Positions 12,744 through 30,439 of a stretch of DNA of 30,439 nt are shown here, one piece after another. The stretch comes from a virus: positions 1-30,439 of IMG/VR virus record IMGVR_UViG_3300048593_000017; one strand, 5' to 3'. Below the pieces are notes generated by a model. It saw nothing but the letters and a program-made list of their open reading frames with translations. It was not told the origin of the DNA and made no database searches. Made by a program: the position numbers and the translations under genes. Each line of letters begins with the position of its first letter. Position 1 is the stretch's first letter.

Positions 12744-13823
12744 ATGCAAAAGTTCACCATCAGGCCAGTGATCCTGAAACATAAGATCAATGAGAAAGGC
12801 ATGGCATCAATCAAAATTGCTGTCACTGTTGATAGGAAAGTCACATACATAAACACATCACACAGGGTACACAAAGACCAGTGGGATGATGAAAATAAAG
12901 CTGTTTACAGGCATGAAAATGCAAAGCTGATCAATGTGTCAATCAGGAGAAAGATTGCCGAAATTGAAAGGGATCTGATCAACAACAGCATCCAGGGTGT
13001 GCAGCTGTCAAAGAGGATTATCAAAGGCCAGGTGACAGTGGCCAGGTCATTCAAACAATATGCAAAAGAGGTCAAATGGGATCAGACAAAATTGAACAGG
13101 ATCATAGATTTTGGGGGTGAGCAATTATTGATCAGTGATGTGACAGTTGAATGGCTGAGAAAGTTTGAAACCTGGTGCAGAAAAAAGCCACTAGCACCCA
13201 ACACCATCCACACCACAATCAAATATGTCAGCAGGATCATCACACAGGCCAGGAAAGAAAAGATCATCCATGATGATCCATTTGATCAATACATCAAACC
13301 AAAGTATCAGCAGACAGATAGGCTGTACCTGGTGGATCATGAATTGAAATTGATGGTGGATCTGCTGGACAAACCAATGAGCAAATCAATGCATGACACA
13401 CTGTGCTATTTTCTGCTGGCATGCTACACAGGCCTGAGACATTCTGACTGGGGCAGATTTAGCATGAGCAATGTTGAGGATGGACATATAAAGCTGAGGG
13501 CATTGAAAAACAAAACACATGTGGTGCTGCCCATAGGCAAAACACTTTCAAAGATTCTTATACATATTGAGAATACTTTAAAACCTTTGAGCAATCAAAA
13601 ATGCAATGTGATGCTGAAAAGCCTGGCATCAATGGCTGGCATTGATAAAGAGATCAGTACACATAGTGGCAGACATTCATTTGGCTACATGTGTGCAGCC
13701 AATGGCCTGCCTGAAAGCACAACAGCAGCACTATTGGGAGTGAATGCCAACACTGTTAAAGTTTACTATCACCTAACAGGTGAAAAGATTAAACACCAGG
13801 CAAATGCTTTGAAATATGTTTAA
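12744..13823 (+). CDS. int: Tyrosine recombinase (integrase)
   Basis: The 359-residue protein has an N-terminal arm-type DNA-binding domain (about 1-90), a SAM-like core-binding domain (about 100-185) and a catalytic domain. Catalytic residues visible are Arg232 (TGLRHSD), Lys257 or Lys255 (LKNKT), His307 and Arg310 (HSGRH), and the nucleophile Tyr342 or Tyr341 (VYYHLTG). The usual second His or Trp, expected where the sequence reads LLGVN, is Val333. It would carry out site-specific integration between attP and attB. Its ATG directly follows tandem repeats that could control it. The opposing repressor gene ends about 80 bases downstream. Confidence 0.9.
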   Translation: MQKFTIRPVILKHKINEKGMASIKIAVTVDRKVTYINTSHRVHKDQWDDENKAVYRHENAKLINVSIRRKIAEIERDLINNSIQGVQLSKRIIKGQVTVARSFKQYAKEVKWDQTKLNRIIDFGGEQLLISDVTVEWLRKFETWCRKKPLAPNTIHTTIKYVSRIITQARKEKIIHDDPFDQYIKPKYQQTDRLYLVDHELKLMVDLLDKPMSKSMHDTLCYFLLACYTGLRHSDWGRFSMSNVEDGHIKLRALKNKTHVVLPIGKTLSKILIHIENTLKPLSNQKCNVMLKSLASMAGIDKEISTHSGRHSFGYMCAANGLPESTTAALLGVNANTVKVYYHLTGEKIKHQANALKYV

Positions 13824-23623: not shown

Positions 23624-24115
23624 ATGGCAAAGGCAATAAAGAAACCTACTAAGAAAGCTGCACCTAAAAAGGCAGCAAAGCCAGTTGGCAGGCCAAAGAA
23701 TATTGAGACACCTGAGATCATGTGGGATCTGTTTCAGCAATATAAGAAAGACACCAAAGCAAATCCATTCATTGTCAAAGACTGGGTGGGTGGAATGGGC
23801 AAACAGGTGCTGAGAGAGAAAGAGAAACCACTGACACTGGAGGGATTCAATGTGTGGTGTTTTGAACAGGGGATTGCATCATGGCTGCATGATTATTTCA
23901 TGAATAAAGATGGCAGGTACAAAGAATTTGCCAATATCTGCTCTATAATAAAGGAACAAATCAGGCAGGATCAGGTGGCTGGTGGCATGGCTGGGATCTA
24001 CAATCCGAGCATCACACAGAGACTGAATGGACTGGTAGATAAGATCCAGGAGGATGGCAGCAAAGAGGTGACCATCAAAGTGAAGTATGAAAAGAAAGAA
24101 ACACCAAAAGATTAA
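23624..24115 (+). CDS. terS: Terminase small subunit
   Basis: The 163-residue protein starts with a Lys/Ala/Pro-rich basic tail (KAIKKPTKKAAPKKAAKP), then a PVGRPKNIETPE segment and helices resembling phage DNA-packaging proteins (IMWDLFQQYKKDTKANPF, DYFMNKDGRYKEF, IRQDQVAGGMAGIYNPSITQ). The YNPSITQRLNGL segment is typical of the family. It recognises phage DNA for packaging. Its stop overlaps the TerL start by one base. Confidence 0.75.
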   Translation: MAKAIKKPTKKAAPKKAAKPVGRPKNIETPEIMWDLFQQYKKDTKANPFIVKDWVGGMGKQVLREKEKPLTLEGFNVWCFEQGIASWLHDYFMNKDGRYKEFANICSIIKEQIRQDQVAGGMAGIYNPSITQRLNGLVDKIQEDGSKEVTIKVKYEKKETPKD

Positions 24116-25287
24116 TGCTAGAAAAGACAGTACACCTGAATGAACTGCATGTCAATCAGCAGAAAGTTGTGGATGGCCATAAAAGGTTTTCTGTGCTATC
24201 ATGTGGCAGACGGTGGGGCAAATCAGCCCTGGCCATCAACCTGCTATCTGAGACAGCCATTGCAGGCAAATTGGCTGGCTATTTCACACCTACATACAAA
24301 CTACTGGATGGCACATTCAATGAGTGCCTGCATGCCCTAGAGCCTATCATATCACGCAAAAATGACCATCAATTCATTGAACTGATCACAGGTGGCAAAA
24401 TAGAGTTTTGGTCACTAGAGAATGAACTGGCAGGTAGATCCAGGAAATACCACAGGAATATCATTGATGAGGCTGCATTCGTTAAAAACCTATGGAATAG
24501 ATGGACTGAATCCATCAGGCCTACACTGACTGACTTTAAGGGTGATGCATTCTTTTTATCTACACCTAAAGGCAAAAATGACTTTCATAAGATTTGGCAG
24601 AGAGGCAAATCAGGTGATGCCGGTTGGGTAAGCTGGCAGATGTCTACCTATGACAATCCCTATATTGATCCAACAGAAATAGATGAGGCTAGACTGGATC
24701 TGCCTGAGTTGGCATTTAGTCAGGAATACATGGCTGAGTTCAATGAGAATGTGGCAAATCCATTTGGTGCTATGTTCATCCAGCAGTGTACCTATCCCAT
24801 GAGCAATCAGCCAGCTGTATGCTATGGCATTGACCTGGCAAAGTCATATGACTACACAGTGATCATAGGCCTGGATGAGAATGGCACAGTGTGTCACTTT
24901 GATAGGTTTCAGGATGACTGGCGTACCACTAAGCAAAGAATCACAGCACTGCCCAGGTCACCGATTCTGATGGACAGCACTGGTGTGGGTGATCCTATCT
25001 TTGAGGATCTACAGGCAGCAGGCCTGGATGTCACAGGCTTTAAGTTCAGCAGCACATCTAAACAGCAACTGATGACAGGGCTACAGACAGCCATCCAACA
25101 GAGAAAGATTGCTTTTCCTGATGGTGCAATCACAGCTGAACTGAACATCTTTGAATATGAGTTCACCAACAGTGGTGTGAAGTATGCAGCACCTAGTGGA
25201 TTCCATGATGACTGTGTGATGGCATTGGCACTGGCCTGGAATAACCACAACACAAAGAGAGGCACAGGCAGATATTCATTTGCTTAA
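24115..25287 (+). CDS. terL: Terminase large subunit
   Basis: The 390-residue protein has an ATPase domain with Walker A GRRWGKS (31-37), Walker B IIDEA (116-120) and a coupling motif FLSTPKG. Its RNase H-like nuclease domain has Asp240 (YGIDLAKSYD), Asp287 (LMDSTGVGD) and Asp365/366 (FHDDCVMALALA). All key residues are present, so it appears complete though shorter than many large terminases. It powers DNA packaging and cuts the concatemer at the portal. It starts within the last base of terS. Confidence 0.93.
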   Translation: MLEKTVHLNELHVNQQKVVDGHKRFSVLSCGRRWGKSALAINLLSETAIAGKLAGYFTPTYKLLDGTFNECLHALEPIISRKNDHQFIELITGGKIEFWSLENELAGRSRKYHRNIIDEAAFVKNLWNRWTESIRPTLTDFKGDAFFLSTPKGKNDFHKIWQRGKSGDAGWVSWQMSTYDNPYIDPTEIDEARLDLPELAFSQEYMAEFNENVANPFGAMFIQQCTYPMSNQPAVCYGIDLAKSYDYTVIIGLDENGTVCHFDRFQDDWRTTKQRITALPRSPILMDSTGVGDPIFEDLQAAGLDVTGFKFSSTSKQQLMTGLQTAIQQRKIAFPDGAITAELNIFEYEFTNSGVKYAAPSGFHDDCVMALALAWNNHNTKRGTGRYSFA

Positions 25288-25547: not shown

Positions 25548-26201
25548 ATGACATGGAAAGATATAAACGTATTTCAGTGGCAGCAACTGTATGACCTGCA
25601 ATCAAATGTTGAGAGCATGTCTGAACAGGAAATGAGCATCAAGACAATTGCCATCCTGACAAATAAGACTGAGCAACAGATCCAGGATATGTCTGAAAAG
25701 CAATTCCTAAAGATTGCCCACAAAATCAAGTTTCTACAAAAGCAATTTGATGTCAAGCATGTAAACTACATCTATGCAAATGGCAAAAGATTCAAATGCC
25801 AGTATGATGTCAAAAGAATGCCAGCAGGCAGGTACATAGAGACAAAGCACTTTGCTGCCAGCTTTACTGAAAACCTGCATAGAATAGCAGCAACAATGGT
25901 CATCCCACAGAAAAGAAACTGGCTAGGCATGTGGGTAGATCTGCCCTATGATCCATCTAGTCATGAGGAATATGCAAATGACATGCTGACTGCACCCATC
26001 ACAGATGTGCTGGGATCTGTGGTTTTTTTTTGTCAAGTGTACAGGCACTGGATAAAAGTTTCAAAGGACTTTTTGATCTCGGAGATGATGAGGATGAAGA
26101 TGAGCAAGCTACAAGCGGAAATAGTGTATCAGGCTTTATGCAGCGTTTTGGATGGATTTACCAGGCATCCATTGTTGCCGAACATGAAAAGATCAAACTA
26201 G
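25548..26201 (+). CDS. Tail assembly chaperone, zero-frame product
   Basis: The ATG at 25548 gives 217 residues; a TTG at 25464 lies in the promoter and is rejected. The N-terminal 161 residues (MTWKDINVFQWQQLYDLQS, then FLKIAHKIKFLQKQF and a YDVKRMPAGRYIETKHFAA segment) resemble tail assembly chaperones of Bacteroidota phages, encoded upstream of the tape measure. Zero-frame codons 162-217 follow a T9 run and look partly like an antiphase reading of the next frame. A -1 shift would instead add the 26030 frame. The chaperone coats the tape measure during tail assembly. Confidence 0.65.
   Translation: MTWKDINVFQWQQLYDLQSNVESMSEQEMSIKTIAILTNKTEQQIQDMSEKQFLKIAHKIKFLQKQFDVKHVNYIYANGKRFKCQYDVKRMPAGRYIETKHFAASFTENLHRIAATMVIPQKRNWLGMWVDLPYDPSSHEEYANDMLTAPITDVLGSVVFFCQVYRHWIKVSKDFLISEMMRMKMSKLQAEIVYQALCSVLDGFTRHPLLPNMKRSN
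26024..26030 (+). other. Slippery site, T TTT TTT, for -1 frameshift
   Basis: A nine-T run (26023-26031) contains T TTT TTT in the right phase (zero-frame codons TTT TTT at 26025-26030). A -1 shift resumes at TTG (26030) exactly where the second frame opens, giving a fusion of about 255 residues. Polymerase slippage adding one T would give the same protein. Confidence 0.6.
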
Positions 26202-26314
26202 AGGATGTGTATGATCTGATGACTATCCAATTTTTAAATGACTTATCCTATTTGAAAGCCAAAGCAGAACACGATAAAGCACAACTGAAAAAAGTGTATG
26301 GCAAAAACAACTAA
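26030..26314 (+). CDS. Tail assembly chaperone, frameshifted C-terminal domain
   Basis: This 94-residue open frame has no good start of its own; the TTG at 26030 coincides with the shift site, and the only early ATG is well inside at 26138. It holds an acidic stretch (LGDDEDEDEQ) and a helical domain (GFMQRFGWIYQASIVAEHEK, YDLMTIQFLNDLSYLKAKAE), as in gpT-like extensions that bind the tape measure. It overlaps the following gene by 17 bases. Confidence 0.6.
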   Translation: MSSVQALDKSFKGLFDLGDDEDEDEQATSGNSVSGFMQRFGWIYQASIVAEHEKIKLEDVYDLMTIQFLNDLSYLKAKAEHDKAQLKKVYGKNN

Positions 26315-27026
26315 ACAACTACAGAATGAACTGGTCAATGATGGATTCCTGGACAAACTAGGAAATGATCCAACTGACTTTGCAACTGTGGGTGAACTGC
26401 CTACAGTGGAAAGATTCATGATCAAGTCTGCTGCACTGTTTATTCAGAACATAAAGGATGAGTTAAACAGAAAGGGAAAGGTTGCCAGTGGTGGCATAGA
26501 GGATGGCATTTCAGAGGGTGCATTGACAAAAGACAGCAATGGCTATGAGATCACTATAGGATGGGACAAATCAGATCCTGCATCTAAATACTATGACTTT
26601 GTCAATAAAGGTGTCAGCGGTTTTGAGAAAGGTGAGCCTGGATCACCATACAGCTTTAAAAAGAAACTGAACAAAAAGGGTGGCATCCTTATAGGTGCTG
26701 CCATGCAAAAGAGCCTGTTGAGGTGGTATCAGCTGAGAGGCACAATGGGCAGCAGAGAGGATCAAAAGAAAAAGCTATCAGCTGGCCAGCGTAAAAATAA
26801 GAGTTTAGCAAAGGTCAAATCAGCTGATGAAAAGATGAAATCCATTGTGTATGCTACAGCGGTGAACATTAAAAAGAAAGGTATCAGACGGACTGGATTC
26901 TTTGACAATACCATCAATTCAACATTTGGGCAGAGTTTCCTGGAATCCCTATCTAAAGTAGTTGGGCAGGATGTGAAGGTCATAATAAGACAGGCAAATA
27001 ACAATTTAAACGATAAAAAAGAATAA
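26298..27026 (+). CDS. Tail-region structural protein, possible tail-completion or neck role
   Basis: The 242-residue protein is basic in its second half. The N-terminal part (LPTVERFMIKSAALFIQNIK, then IEDGISEGALTKDS) and the positively charged middle resemble gp10-like tail-completion proteins, but the likeness is loose. The C-terminal third (VYATAVNIKKKGIRRTGFF) is similar to small minor tail proteins. It is followed by tail genes, one base overlapping each. The function is from context. Confidence 0.45.
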   Translation: MAKTTKQLQNELVNDGFLDKLGNDPTDFATVGELPTVERFMIKSAALFIQNIKDELNRKGKVASGGIEDGISEGALTKDSNGYEITIGWDKSDPASKYYDFVNKGVSGFEKGEPGSPYSFKKKLNKKGGILIGAAMQKSLLRWYQLRGTMGSREDQKKKLSAGQRKNKSLAKVKSADEKMKSIVYATAVNIKKKGIRRTGFFDNTINSTFGQSFLESLSKVVGQDVKVIIRQANNNLNDKKE

Positions 27027-28201
27027 TGGCAATAACAATCAATAGCACACCTGAGGCATATCCATCAGCACATGATGATCTGTACTTTGTGGTGACATCT
27101 AATAACTATGCACAGGCAGGTTTCAAATATGTGTTTGACATCTTAATCAGTGGCACACTGGTGACCAGGATCAAACTATTTCCTGATCCTGCAACTACCA
27201 AAGGCATCTTTAATGCTGGCAGTGTGGTCAGAAGTTACCTAAATGGATATTTCAAACCCAATGCCACAACCACTGCATTTGCTTACACAGGGAATGATCT
27301 GTACATCAACTATGAGATCAGATTTGGTGAGGACTATGGTGGCACTACATACACCAACCTGGCATCAGGTAACTATAGAGCATTCAACTTTGTCAATCCA
27401 GTATTCAGAGACTGGACTACATCATACTACCAACCAAAGATCAACACCTGGCTGACAGGCAGGGATGTGACCACAGCTGAGGTAGGACTGACAGAGAGGC
27501 TGTATGCTGGTTTCATGAACACAGCTGCAACCACTACCAACCTGACATTGACAGTACAAAAGTATTTACCAGGTGGGGCAGCAGACGGATCATCATCAAC
27601 AGGCAACAGTATTGCATGCAGTGCATTTGTATTGTTTGACCTGTCACCTGCTGCCATCAATGCATACCTGGGCAGTTCACTGATCAATGCAGCCACATAC
27701 CAGTATGGTGTGAAAGTAAACTATGGAGGCAATCAGTCACCTGAGTTTAAGATCAAGTTAGCTTGCAACCCTAGATGGACACCAGTGACATTGCATTTCT
27801 TAAATAAGCTGGGAGGCTATGACAGCTTTGCATTTAGATTAGTGAATAAGAGATCTGCATCTGTTGAGAAAAAAAGCTATCAGCAACTAGACTGGCAGTA
27901 TAATTCAGGATCTATGACCAGGTATGATTCATTCAAAAGGATCAATGCTGGTGTCAATACGTTTGCAGTTAATGAGATGGTGAGTTTTAAACTATCAAGT
28001 GACTATATCAATGCCACTGACTATTTATGGCTAAAGGATCTTATCACCAGCCCTGAGGTCTACTATGAGGATGCTGGCTACTACTATCCTGTTGGAATTA
28101 AGAACACCAGCTGGGAGGAAAAGAATAGGATTGCTGACAAGATGTTCAACTTTGATTTAGAGGTTGAATTTGCTCAAAAAATGAATAGTCAATACAGATG
28201 A
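27026..28201 (+). CDS. Tail or baseplate structural protein
   Basis: The 391-residue protein is rich in Thr, Asn, Tyr and Ser with beta-strand patterns throughout (LYFVVTSNNYAQAG, DLYINYEIRFGEDYGG, WLTGRDVTTAEVGLTERLYA). I recall this type from tail regions of Bacteroidota phages, often just before the 730-residue protein below. It lacks membrane or enzyme motifs. The stop of the previous gene and this ATG share bases. Confidence 0.6.
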   Translation: MAITINSTPEAYPSAHDDLYFVVTSNNYAQAGFKYVFDILISGTLVTRIKLFPDPATTKGIFNAGSVVRSYLNGYFKPNATTTAFAYTGNDLYINYEIRFGEDYGGTTYTNLASGNYRAFNFVNPVFRDWTTSYYQPKINTWLTGRDVTTAEVGLTERLYAGFMNTAATTTNLTLTVQKYLPGGAADGSSSTGNSIACSAFVLFDLSPAAINAYLGSSLINAATYQYGVKVNYGGNQSPEFKIKLACNPRWTPVTLHFLNKLGGYDSFAFRLVNKRSASVEKKSYQQLDWQYNSGSMTRYDSFKRINAGVNTFAVNEMVSFKLSSDYINATDYLWLKDLITSPEVYYEDAGYYYPVGIKNTSWEEKNRIADKMFNFDLEVEFAQKMNSQYR

Positions 28202-30390
28202 TCAAAACAGAAATATATATTGAAAATCAGAGGCTGGATCTTACTAAAGACCTATCAACTGAGTTCACATACAACATTGATGATGTTAAGGATTTTTCAT
28301 CACGCAATACCAACTTTTCTAAGACTATTGTCTTACCTGGGAATGCTGTAAACAATCAGGTGTTTGGACACATCTTTGAGTTTGGATCATCAAATGATTA
28401 TGATCCTGCACTGATCAATGTGGGCTACAATTTCAACCCATCAAAGGCAGCCAACTGTGTTGTGTTTGTAGATAAGGTGCAGATCTTTAAAGGCATTCTG
28501 AGGATGCTGGAAATCATCCTGGACAATGGGACAATAGAATATGAGTGTGCTGTGTTCGGTGAATTGGGTGGCTTTATAGCTGCACTAGGAAATGAAAAGC
28601 TGGAAAACTTAGATTTTTCCCAGTATGATCATACCTGGAATATGACCAACATCACAGGATCATGGGACAATGTGCAGGGATCAGGTTACTACTATCCATT
28701 GATGGACTATGGCCTGGTGAGTTCAGCAAACAAACATGACTGGAATGTGCAGGCATTCAGACCTGCATTGTATGTGAGAGAGTACATGGATAAGATCATC
28801 AGCGGATCAGGCTACACCTATGAATCTAGCTTTTTCAATTCAGCTGTGTTCAGACGGTTGATCATCCCACAAAACGGAAAGATCCTAATCAAAAACACTA
28901 CAAAGCTGGTGCAGGCTGACAGGAATAATGCATACACTGTAATGAACTTACAGAACACCAGCACTGAAAATTTGAAATTTGACAGCATATCACTGGCACA
29001 GTTCACCCAAACAAATGATGAATCATTTACATATACAGGCACAGCGGTGGCAAACACAGTCATCAATCTGAATCTGTATGGTGTTTTGAATTTAGGATTT
29101 TCAGGATTTGGCACAGCTTACACCACATTAAGATTTGACCTGTACAAAGGGACAACAGTGCTGGCCACAAAGTCATTCAACAATACAGTAGGATCAGCAC
29201 CATCACTGGCTATTCCATACCTATGGACTGACACACTAAATGCAGTGATCAACCCAGGTGAAACGCTAAGGATTGAAGTCAATTACACAATGTCATTTGA
29301 TCCTAGCTTGCAATTTTTATTTGGCAATGTTGAATCATACGGTGGCACATTCTTAAAGATTGACAATGCAACTAGCATCACAGTGCCTGCTGAGTATGGT
29401 GACACCATCAGCATCAATGACAACATCCCAAAGGGAATATTTCAAAAGGACTTTTTTGCATCCATCATCAAGATGTTCAACATGTATGTGGTTGAAGATC
29501 CTATTAAGTCAAAGCACCTGATCATCAAACCATACATTGAGTTCTATGATTTTGATGGGCTTTCTTTACTAGCCATTGATGATTTTAATGGCCTATTAAA
29601 AATAAATGACCTGGACAATCTATTGCTAGAGGATGGGGTGATCAGATACATTGACTGGACATATAAGGTGGACAGATCAAAGCCTATCAGGTTGAAACCA
29701 ATGAGTGAACTGAATGGTAGATATTTTGAGTTCAAATACAAAAATGATACAGACTACTACAATGATCAGTATCAAAAGAAATACAGCCAGGCCTATGGCA
29801 CACGAATAGAGGACAGTGGGTATGACTTTGCAAAGGAAAAGCAGACAGCTGAAATCATCTTTGCACCTACACCACTGGTGGGCTATAATGGTGAGGATAA
29901 AGTGTTCAGCACAATATTCAAACTGAACAATGGGGTAGAGGATGTGACTGAGCATGTGATCAGGATCTTACAGGCCAAAAAGATCACAGGTGTCACCAGC
30001 TATGCAGTTAAGAATGGTGGGGCAACATTGCAGAATTTAACTACTTATGGATATGCTGGACATCTTGATGATCCTGATGCACCACAGGCAGATTTGAACT
30101 TTGGCACACCTGGTGAACTGTACTTTGAACTGGTTACACCATACCCAACAGCAAATCTATTCAATGGATATTGGAGTGAGTACATAGCGGAGATCACAGA
30201 TAAGGACAGCAAACTACTATCAGCATTTGTCTACCTGAAAGCAAAAGACATATACAGCCTGGACTTTGCAAGACTGATCTATATAGATGGGGCTTTGTGG
30301 AGGTTGAACAGTGTGCAGGACTACAATCCAATGGACACTGGCATCACAAAGGCTGAATTTTTAAAAGTAATTGAGACAACATACGAATAA
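28198..30390 (+). CDS. Large tail or baseplate protein
   Basis: The 730-residue protein starts with IYIENQRLDLTKDLSTEFTY, then NTNFSKTIVLPGNAVNN, a recognisable pattern from Bacteroidota phage tail proteins. The rest is Tyr and Asn rich beta structure with a region near 410-480 rich in hydrophobic and acidic residues (FFASIIKMFNMYVVEDPIKS). It precedes the tape measure. Tail-tip or baseplate roles fit size and place. No enzymatic motif is visible. Confidence 0.6.
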   Translation: MIKTEIYIENQRLDLTKDLSTEFTYNIDDVKDFSSRNTNFSKTIVLPGNAVNNQVFGHIFEFGSSNDYDPALINVGYNFNPSKAANCVVFVDKVQIFKGILRMLEIILDNGTIEYECAVFGELGGFIAALGNEKLENLDFSQYDHTWNMTNITGSWDNVQGSGYYYPLMDYGLVSSANKHDWNVQAFRPALYVREYMDKIISGSGYTYESSFFNSAVFRRLIIPQNGKILIKNTTKLVQADRNNAYTVMNLQNTSTENLKFDSISLAQFTQTNDESFTYTGTAVANTVINLNLYGVLNLGFSGFGTAYTTLRFDLYKGTTVLATKSFNNTVGSAPSLAIPYLWTDTLNAVINPGETLRIEVNYTMSFDPSLQFLFGNVESYGGTFLKIDNATSITVPAEYGDTISINDNIPKGIFQKDFFASIIKMFNMYVVEDPIKSKHLIIKPYIEFYDFDGLSLLAIDDFNGLLKINDLDNLLLEDGVIRYIDWTYKVDRSKPIRLKPMSELNGRYFEFKYKNDTDYYNDQYQKKYSQAYGTRIEDSGYDFAKEKQTAEIIFAPTPLVGYNGEDKVFSTIFKLNNGVEDVTEHVIRILQAKKITGVTSYAVKNGGATLQNLTTYGYAGHLDDPDAPQADLNFGTPGELYFELVTPYPTANLFNGYWSEYIAEITDKDSKLLSAFVYLKAKDIYSLDFARLIYIDGALWRLNSVQDYNPMDTGITKAEFLKVIETTYE

Positions 30391-30439
30391 TGGCAAATGA
30401 AAAAGTAGGTGTTGATATTGTAGTCAATACAGGTGATTC
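30390..30439 (+). CDS. Start of a probable tape measure protein (truncated by the window)
   Basis: The ATG shares a base with the previous stop and 16 codons are visible, reading MANEKVGVDIVVNTGD. This opening is typical of tape measure proteins, which set tail length. Position after the chaperone and tail genes supports it, but the rest lies outside the window. Confidence 0.5.
   Translation, partial: MANEKVGVDIVVNTGD

Follow-up and report, generated by a model that had tools for sequence, protein, structure and literature searches.

Tail-chaperone frameshifts are textbook cases of ribosomal recoding, and the locus analyzed here raises the question of whether a gene with the same two-product layout may owe its longer product to RNA polymerase instead. 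The window, a viral sequence of 30,439 bases (positions 1–30,439 of the IMG/VR record IMGVR_UViG_3300048593_000017), contains two overlapping ORFs that meet at a run of nine T's, hereafter T9 (Table 1). A first-pass annotation made from the letters alone read them as a tail chaperone pair joined by a −1 frameshift, and mentioned polymerase slippage as an aside. The −1 joining stands, while the weighting of the two machines is reversed by the observation that the run is kept at nine in three codon phases. The pair probably represents a single two-product gene of Bacteroidota siphophages, similar to tail assembly chaperones, whose fusion product would arise through polymerase slippage on T9.

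Table 1. Positions of the gene pair and its neighbors in the window.
Feature	Position	Strand	Remarks
Terminase large subunit (TerL), upstream neighbor	24115–25287	+	tblastn to annotated TerL, best E 8e-52
ORF1, zero frame	25548–26201	+	ATG at 25548; 217 aa; N-terminal domain of 161 aa up to the slip, followed by a 56-aa tail
T9 slip run	26023–26031	+	Zero-frame codons GTT TTT TTT TGT (codons 159–162 of ORF1)
C-terminal domain, −1 frame	26030–26314	+	94 aa; stop codon 26312–26314; conserved motif FMxxYGWIYQ...LNDLxYLKxK
Dual-coded stretch	26030–26201	+	172 nt; first ~40–45 codons constrained in both frames
HK97-gp10-like gene	26298–27026	+	Begins before the −1 ORF has ended; PF04883 match (E 0.008) under the curated cut-off
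Predicted tail protein	28198–30390	+	730 aa; in relatives the tape-measure gene is next, past the window end

The heptamer T_TTT_TTT lies in phase at 26024–26030, and the second frame resumes at the shift point, 26030, just as the first-pass annotation described. A slip at the run connects the N-domain with the −1 frame into a fusion of 255 aa. The −1 frame contains no ATG or GTG upstream of the slip in the window, and the TTG at 26030 is its sole start-like codon. In two relatives, L021 (at 6456) and L298 (at 7989), an ATG of the −1 frame immediately precedes the run, and the C-domain might be produced there on its own. The +1 frame, which would be opened by the deletion of one T, is closed about 8 codons on by a TAA that is near-universal in the clade (~26053–26055 in the window).

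Relatives were collected by similarity to the N-domain or the C-domain, never by the T run. Five scans of IMG/VR with N-domain or C-domain queries revealed 171 distinct loci holding both parts. Of these, 161 have the C part in the −1 frame, 160 with T9 (including L274, whose run was read by eye) and one, L021, with T10. In L067, a ~57-nt duplication at the T9 run (around 2668) brings both parts into frame, through either an assembly fault or a natural fusion. A first scan of GTDB genomes, by pattern, found no relative; a scan with the C-domain found a contig of a Mucilaginibacter metagenome-assembled genome (MAG), L298, with T9. Profile searches were run over nearly 2,000 genomes, only a handful of them from outside Bacteroidota. 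They yielded six further Bacteroidia loci, each with T9, in one of which (L322) the N-terminal ORF is broken, and a prophage, G262, also with T9, integrated in a 366-kb contig with host genes on both sides, from a genome of the same family as the Mucilaginibacter MAG. The IMG/VR relatives of two genome loci contributed 79 more distinct loci, 79 out of 79 with T9; L421, cut by a contig end, was left out of this count.

Frameshifted relatives come from IMG/VR contigs, from the phage isolates Nonlabens P12024S and P12024L, and from Bacteroidia genomes, and a Bacteroidota setting is supported. They amount to 250 distinct loci: the 161 of the window's clade, the 79 additional IMG/VR loci, the two isolates, L298, G262, and the six Bacteroidia loci. 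T9 is present in 249 and T10 in one, and runs of 7 or 8 T's were not seen among them. The N-domain identity among the deep lineages is ~18–25%. Two 9-mer runs are found in the window against 1.64 expected by chance, and a T9 alone is not rare; because 249 of the 250 frameshifted relatives have exactly nine T's, it is the conservation of the run, not its presence, that exceeds chance. The joined pair proposed by the first-pass annotation and the conservation of the run are both supported.

The isolates P12024S and P12024L (Nonlabens, formerly Persicivirga, phages) were found with tblastn. In both, this gene comes after TerL, and its T9 has the phase seen in the window. The N-domain homology of P12024S was indicated with hhalign (96%, E 1.6e-9), and a fold search with the model returned the same protein (E 2.6e-6); the hhalign match between the C-domain and the −1 part of P12024S was not significant. 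Unlike the present reading, genes 38 and 39 of P12024S were deposited as two separate hypothetical proteins, with the frameshift unmentioned, and in PHROGs the two halves (L292:5923–6617) are split into the unknown families phrog_32199 and phrog_38404. By this evidence, these two families in P12024S would be one recoded gene. Other isolate phages were rejected: the match in Tenacibaculum phage JQ (E 5) is spurious, with no corresponding gene or run; Flavobacterium phage 6H gave a weak fold match only, and the pair was not seen; Elizabethkingia phage TCUEAP1 has a similar gene order, but its gene after TerL is in one frame and homology was not shown. A mixed alignment of N and C fragments (A7) was misaligned and was excluded.

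The first-pass annotation named as a refutation the finding of relatives in which a single frame encodes the two parts and no T run is present. Such relatives do exist. They are nine loci (L225, L227, L230, L231, L234–L237, and L249), in which the sequence ...FGSVMNWITNIKNLDSGFKGLF... aligns residue for residue with ...LGSVVFF-LSSVQALDKSFKGLF... of the fusion. In the maximum-likelihood tree, this one-frame clade is nested inside the T9 lineages, with P12024S and L019 on long branches. The single frame is thus a derived loss, and its interpretation as the ancestral state is rejected by the same nesting. As a derived loss, it does not refute the switch elsewhere, and it confirms the fusion, which this in-frame clade shows to be a genuine separate product. 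Stops close the remaining frames of the clade, and thus it has lost both the short form and the tail. The possibility that the C-domain is a chance ORF is ruled out by its conservation and by its in-frame coding in this clade.

The run length is nine in all three codon phases. Phase 1 (NTT TTT TTT TNN) is observed in the window's clade, P12024S, L298, L300, L324, L326, and L408; phase 2 (NNT TTT TTT TTN) in L019 and its clade, L322, L325, and L327; and phase 0 (TTT TTT TTT) in L323, a single lineage with marginal N-domain similarity. The N-domain E-values of L322, L323, and L327 are marginal (~1e-4 to 1e-5 per genome), and their placement is supported by the −1 frame and the run. For the ribosome, the seven T's of NNT TTT TTT suffice. 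In the phase-1 lineages, each of the two extra T's is the middle base of a codon for a hydrophobic residue in one or the other frame. In the phase-2 and phase-0 lineages, a T is absent on one side and gained on the other, and the total is still nine.

How often a run would reach nine was estimated with synonymous shuffles of the phages' own genes: among 66 runs of at least 7 T's, 2.6 reach 9 (~4%). Were this ~4% lifted to 30% by local protein constraint, a run that changes phase several times would still be unlikely to stay at nine; the estimate is rough, because the lineages share ancestry. Such runs are avoided elsewhere in these phages; in their other genes, T runs of at least 9 were observed 0 times against 2.6 expected, and A runs of at least 9 were observed 3 times against 21.9 expected. 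In the one host contig analyzed the avoidance is weaker, with 6 A9 runs against 8.5 expected. An SD-like motif upstream of the run was recognized in only 7 of 42 sequences. RNA structure near the run was not found either: the mean fold z is 0.14 upstream and −0.29 downstream, and RNAalifold gave −2.5 kcal/mol with no covarying pair. Baranov 2005 (PMC1088944) considered that a run of 9A or 9T whose length is conserved among homologs very likely serves purposeful transcriptional slippage. On this ground, and because nine is kept in three phases, runs are avoided elsewhere, and no stimulator was found, we infer that programmed transcriptional slippage (T9 to T10 in the mRNA) is favored over ribosomal frameshifting.

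A −1 shift of the ordinary ribosomal type at T_TTT_TTT, of the kind seen in lambda G/GT and P2 E/E′, with the extra T's kept only for the hydrophobic flanking residues, is possible though unlikely. All frameshifted relatives have the heptamer in phase, and the hydrophobic codons of the phase-1 lineages mean that protein constraint explains part of the run. Besides, the literature searched, which covered few subscription journals, describes every tail-chaperone shift found as ribosomal, and no report of transcriptional slippage for a tail chaperone was found there. The exchange of T's between the two sides in the phase-2 and phase-0 lineages, the missing intermediate lengths and stimulators, and the ~4% of the shuffles speak against the ribosome.

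The stretch after the slip is read in both frames, as the first-pass annotation proposed for the overlap between the 56 zero-frame codons and the second frame. The zero-frame tail has 47–85 codons across the window's clade. Measured over 70 non-overlapping relative pairs, the −1 frame has a 4-fold synonymous rate of 0.02–0.08 over the first 40 codons past the slip, against 0.30 for the N-domain in its own frame. The rate rises to 0.13–0.18 beyond codon 60, where the zero frame is still open, and to ~0.18–0.28 over most of the stretch past the zero-frame stop. In the distant clade of L326 (30 pairs), the corresponding rates are 0.21 in the N-domain and 0.00–0.02 over the first 40 codons. Because the synonymous rate in the overlapping frame falls several-fold in two clades, the zero-frame tail is, on these substitution patterns, under protein-level selection over ~40–45 of its residues. 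A conserved RNA element behind the low rate is less likely, since the effect spans ~40 codons and no structure was found.

The protein features of the tail are as follows. The AlphaFold model of the 217-aa form (mean pLDDT 83) predicts confident helices at residues 173–182 and 187–205 in the tail, with blocks at a pLDDT of ~79–87. The pattern xxLxxxLxxxxxYLxxE recurs in the zero-frame tail across lineages. The same DNA read in the −1 frame encodes mainly an acidic linker. In the model of the fusion, the confidence of the C-domain was too low, and this model was not used.

The role of the pair as a tail chaperone, assigned by the first-pass annotation, is likely rather than proven. It is the best reading of the synteny, the architecture, and matches to Phage_TAC_7, the family of P2 gpE, below the curated cut-off. 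The architecture is of the G/GT type: two ORFs are joined in the −1 frame, and a short form and a fusion share the N-domain. Phage_TAC_7 matches the N-domain in 9 of 47 members with the best E-value 2.8e-4, and the single match checked scored 12.3 bits against a curated cut-off of 25 bits. P2 gpE/E+E′ also resembles the present gene in its T-rich slip site and overlapping frames; the P2 site, T_TTT_TTG, is favored by the ribosome only. A fold search against PDB gave no convincing match.

The position of the tape-measure gene differs among relatives. A place directly upstream of the tape measure is typical of G/GT chaperones, but is not strictly defining. In L008, a longer relative of the window, the gene at L008:10855 matches the tape measure family phrog_1538 (E 4e-6), and it is not directly downstream, as three further genes intervene. 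In prophage G262, a tape-measure-like gene is found upstream, next but one, with one ORF on the opposite strand between.

These observations bear on the alternative that the pair is some other two-form factor of the virion or of packaging encoded after the terminase, which is unlikely. Such a factor would fit the position directly after TerL in the window, P12024S, and L298, the tape measure lying several genes downstream in the window's relatives, and the lack of an above-threshold match to a named family or solved fold. It fits poorly with the two-product −1 architecture, with the adjoining gp10-like gene and the Phage_TAC_7 matches, and with the tape-measure-like gene of G262.

For a tail-chaperone-like gene switched by the polymerase, the following steps are proposed. 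Most transcripts would carry the templated nine U's and be translated into the 217-aa protein, composed of the N-domain and the helical tail under selection. Some transcripts would gain one U when RNA polymerase slips on T9, and normal translation of these would yield the 255-aa fusion of the N-domain, the acidic linker, and the C-domain. If the roles parallel those of lambda gpG/gpGT, the tape measure protein would be coated by the short form, and tail tube subunits would be recruited by the fusion.

The gene shares with lambda gpG/gpGT and other siphophage chaperones a short protein and a −1 fusion with a common N-domain, the location in the tail gene region, and a slippery run at the junction (PMC5009743). 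In lambda the shift is ribosomal, and the ratio of the two products is about 30:1 (Atkins 2016, PMC5009743). Unlike in lambda, the T9 here has a fixed length in three phases, the zero-frame tail is selected in the clades tested, and the tape measure is not directly downstream. In Shigella mxiE and spa13 and Citrobacter tssM1, a homopolymer joins two ORFs via nucleotides added in the mRNA (PMC4256274, PMC5009743), as is proposed here. Citrobacter tssM1 also has no SD-like or structural signals near its run (PMC4256274, PMC5009743). These are enteric secretion-system genes in which slippage is experimental, measured at 15–55% (PMC4256274 for Shigella), in contrast to the Bacteroidota phages, where it would follow from comparison of sequences.

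A mixture of the two machines, in which the run feeds polymerase slippage and the ribosome shifts at the in-phase heptamer on unslipped mRNA, is quite improbable. Every T9 contains the heptamer in any phase, and both routes are physically available and lead to the same junction peptide; nothing separates the mixed route from either pure form. The suspicion that the run was miscalled or the second frame arose by chance, raised by error-prone homopolymers and by the expectation of one T9 somewhere in the window, is not credible, as 249 of 250 sequences agree and the C-domain shows conservation and, in one clade, in-frame coding.

Two-product tail-chaperone switches are of a known kind, credited to the ribosome elsewhere; here a nine-T switch is kept in ~250 distant phages and is probably operated by polymerase stutter. 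We lean, somewhat, toward the wider reading that in a large and old family of Bacteroidota phages the ratio between the two tail-chaperone forms is determined at an exact T9 by slippage of RNA polymerase and not by the ribosome, with the short form's tail and the fusion's linker encoded in the same DNA and selected in both frames. If this is true, the same two-product layout is achieved via the polymerase, and it would be the ratio, not the machine, that is kept by selection. With the sequence rule of T9 after the N-domain, genes now recorded as pairs of unknown proteins could be annotated in hundreds of Bacteroidota phages, and the overlap offers a well-defined dual-coding stretch for study.

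Several other features of the window were recognized. The portal gene contains an A9 run (2822–2830) in a phage group otherwise avoiding such runs; it was rejected as a second slip site, the same sequence being found only in the near-identical L424 and L425. Positions 1–313 are apparently the C-terminal end of a major capsid protein, the 5′ part of whose gene is absent from the record. The record ends at 30391–30439, just before the tape measure gene, which it does not include; related contigs are 32–35 kb. Upstream of the terminase genes, close relatives carry variable cargo genes (L008:3610–4260; ahead of TerL in L007 and L010), which by eye are amidase-, acyltransferase-, or glycosyltransferase-like. 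An ORF at 12744–13823, likewise judged by eye, is similar to tyrosine recombinases, as would suit a temperate phage and in agreement with the integrated relative found in G262.
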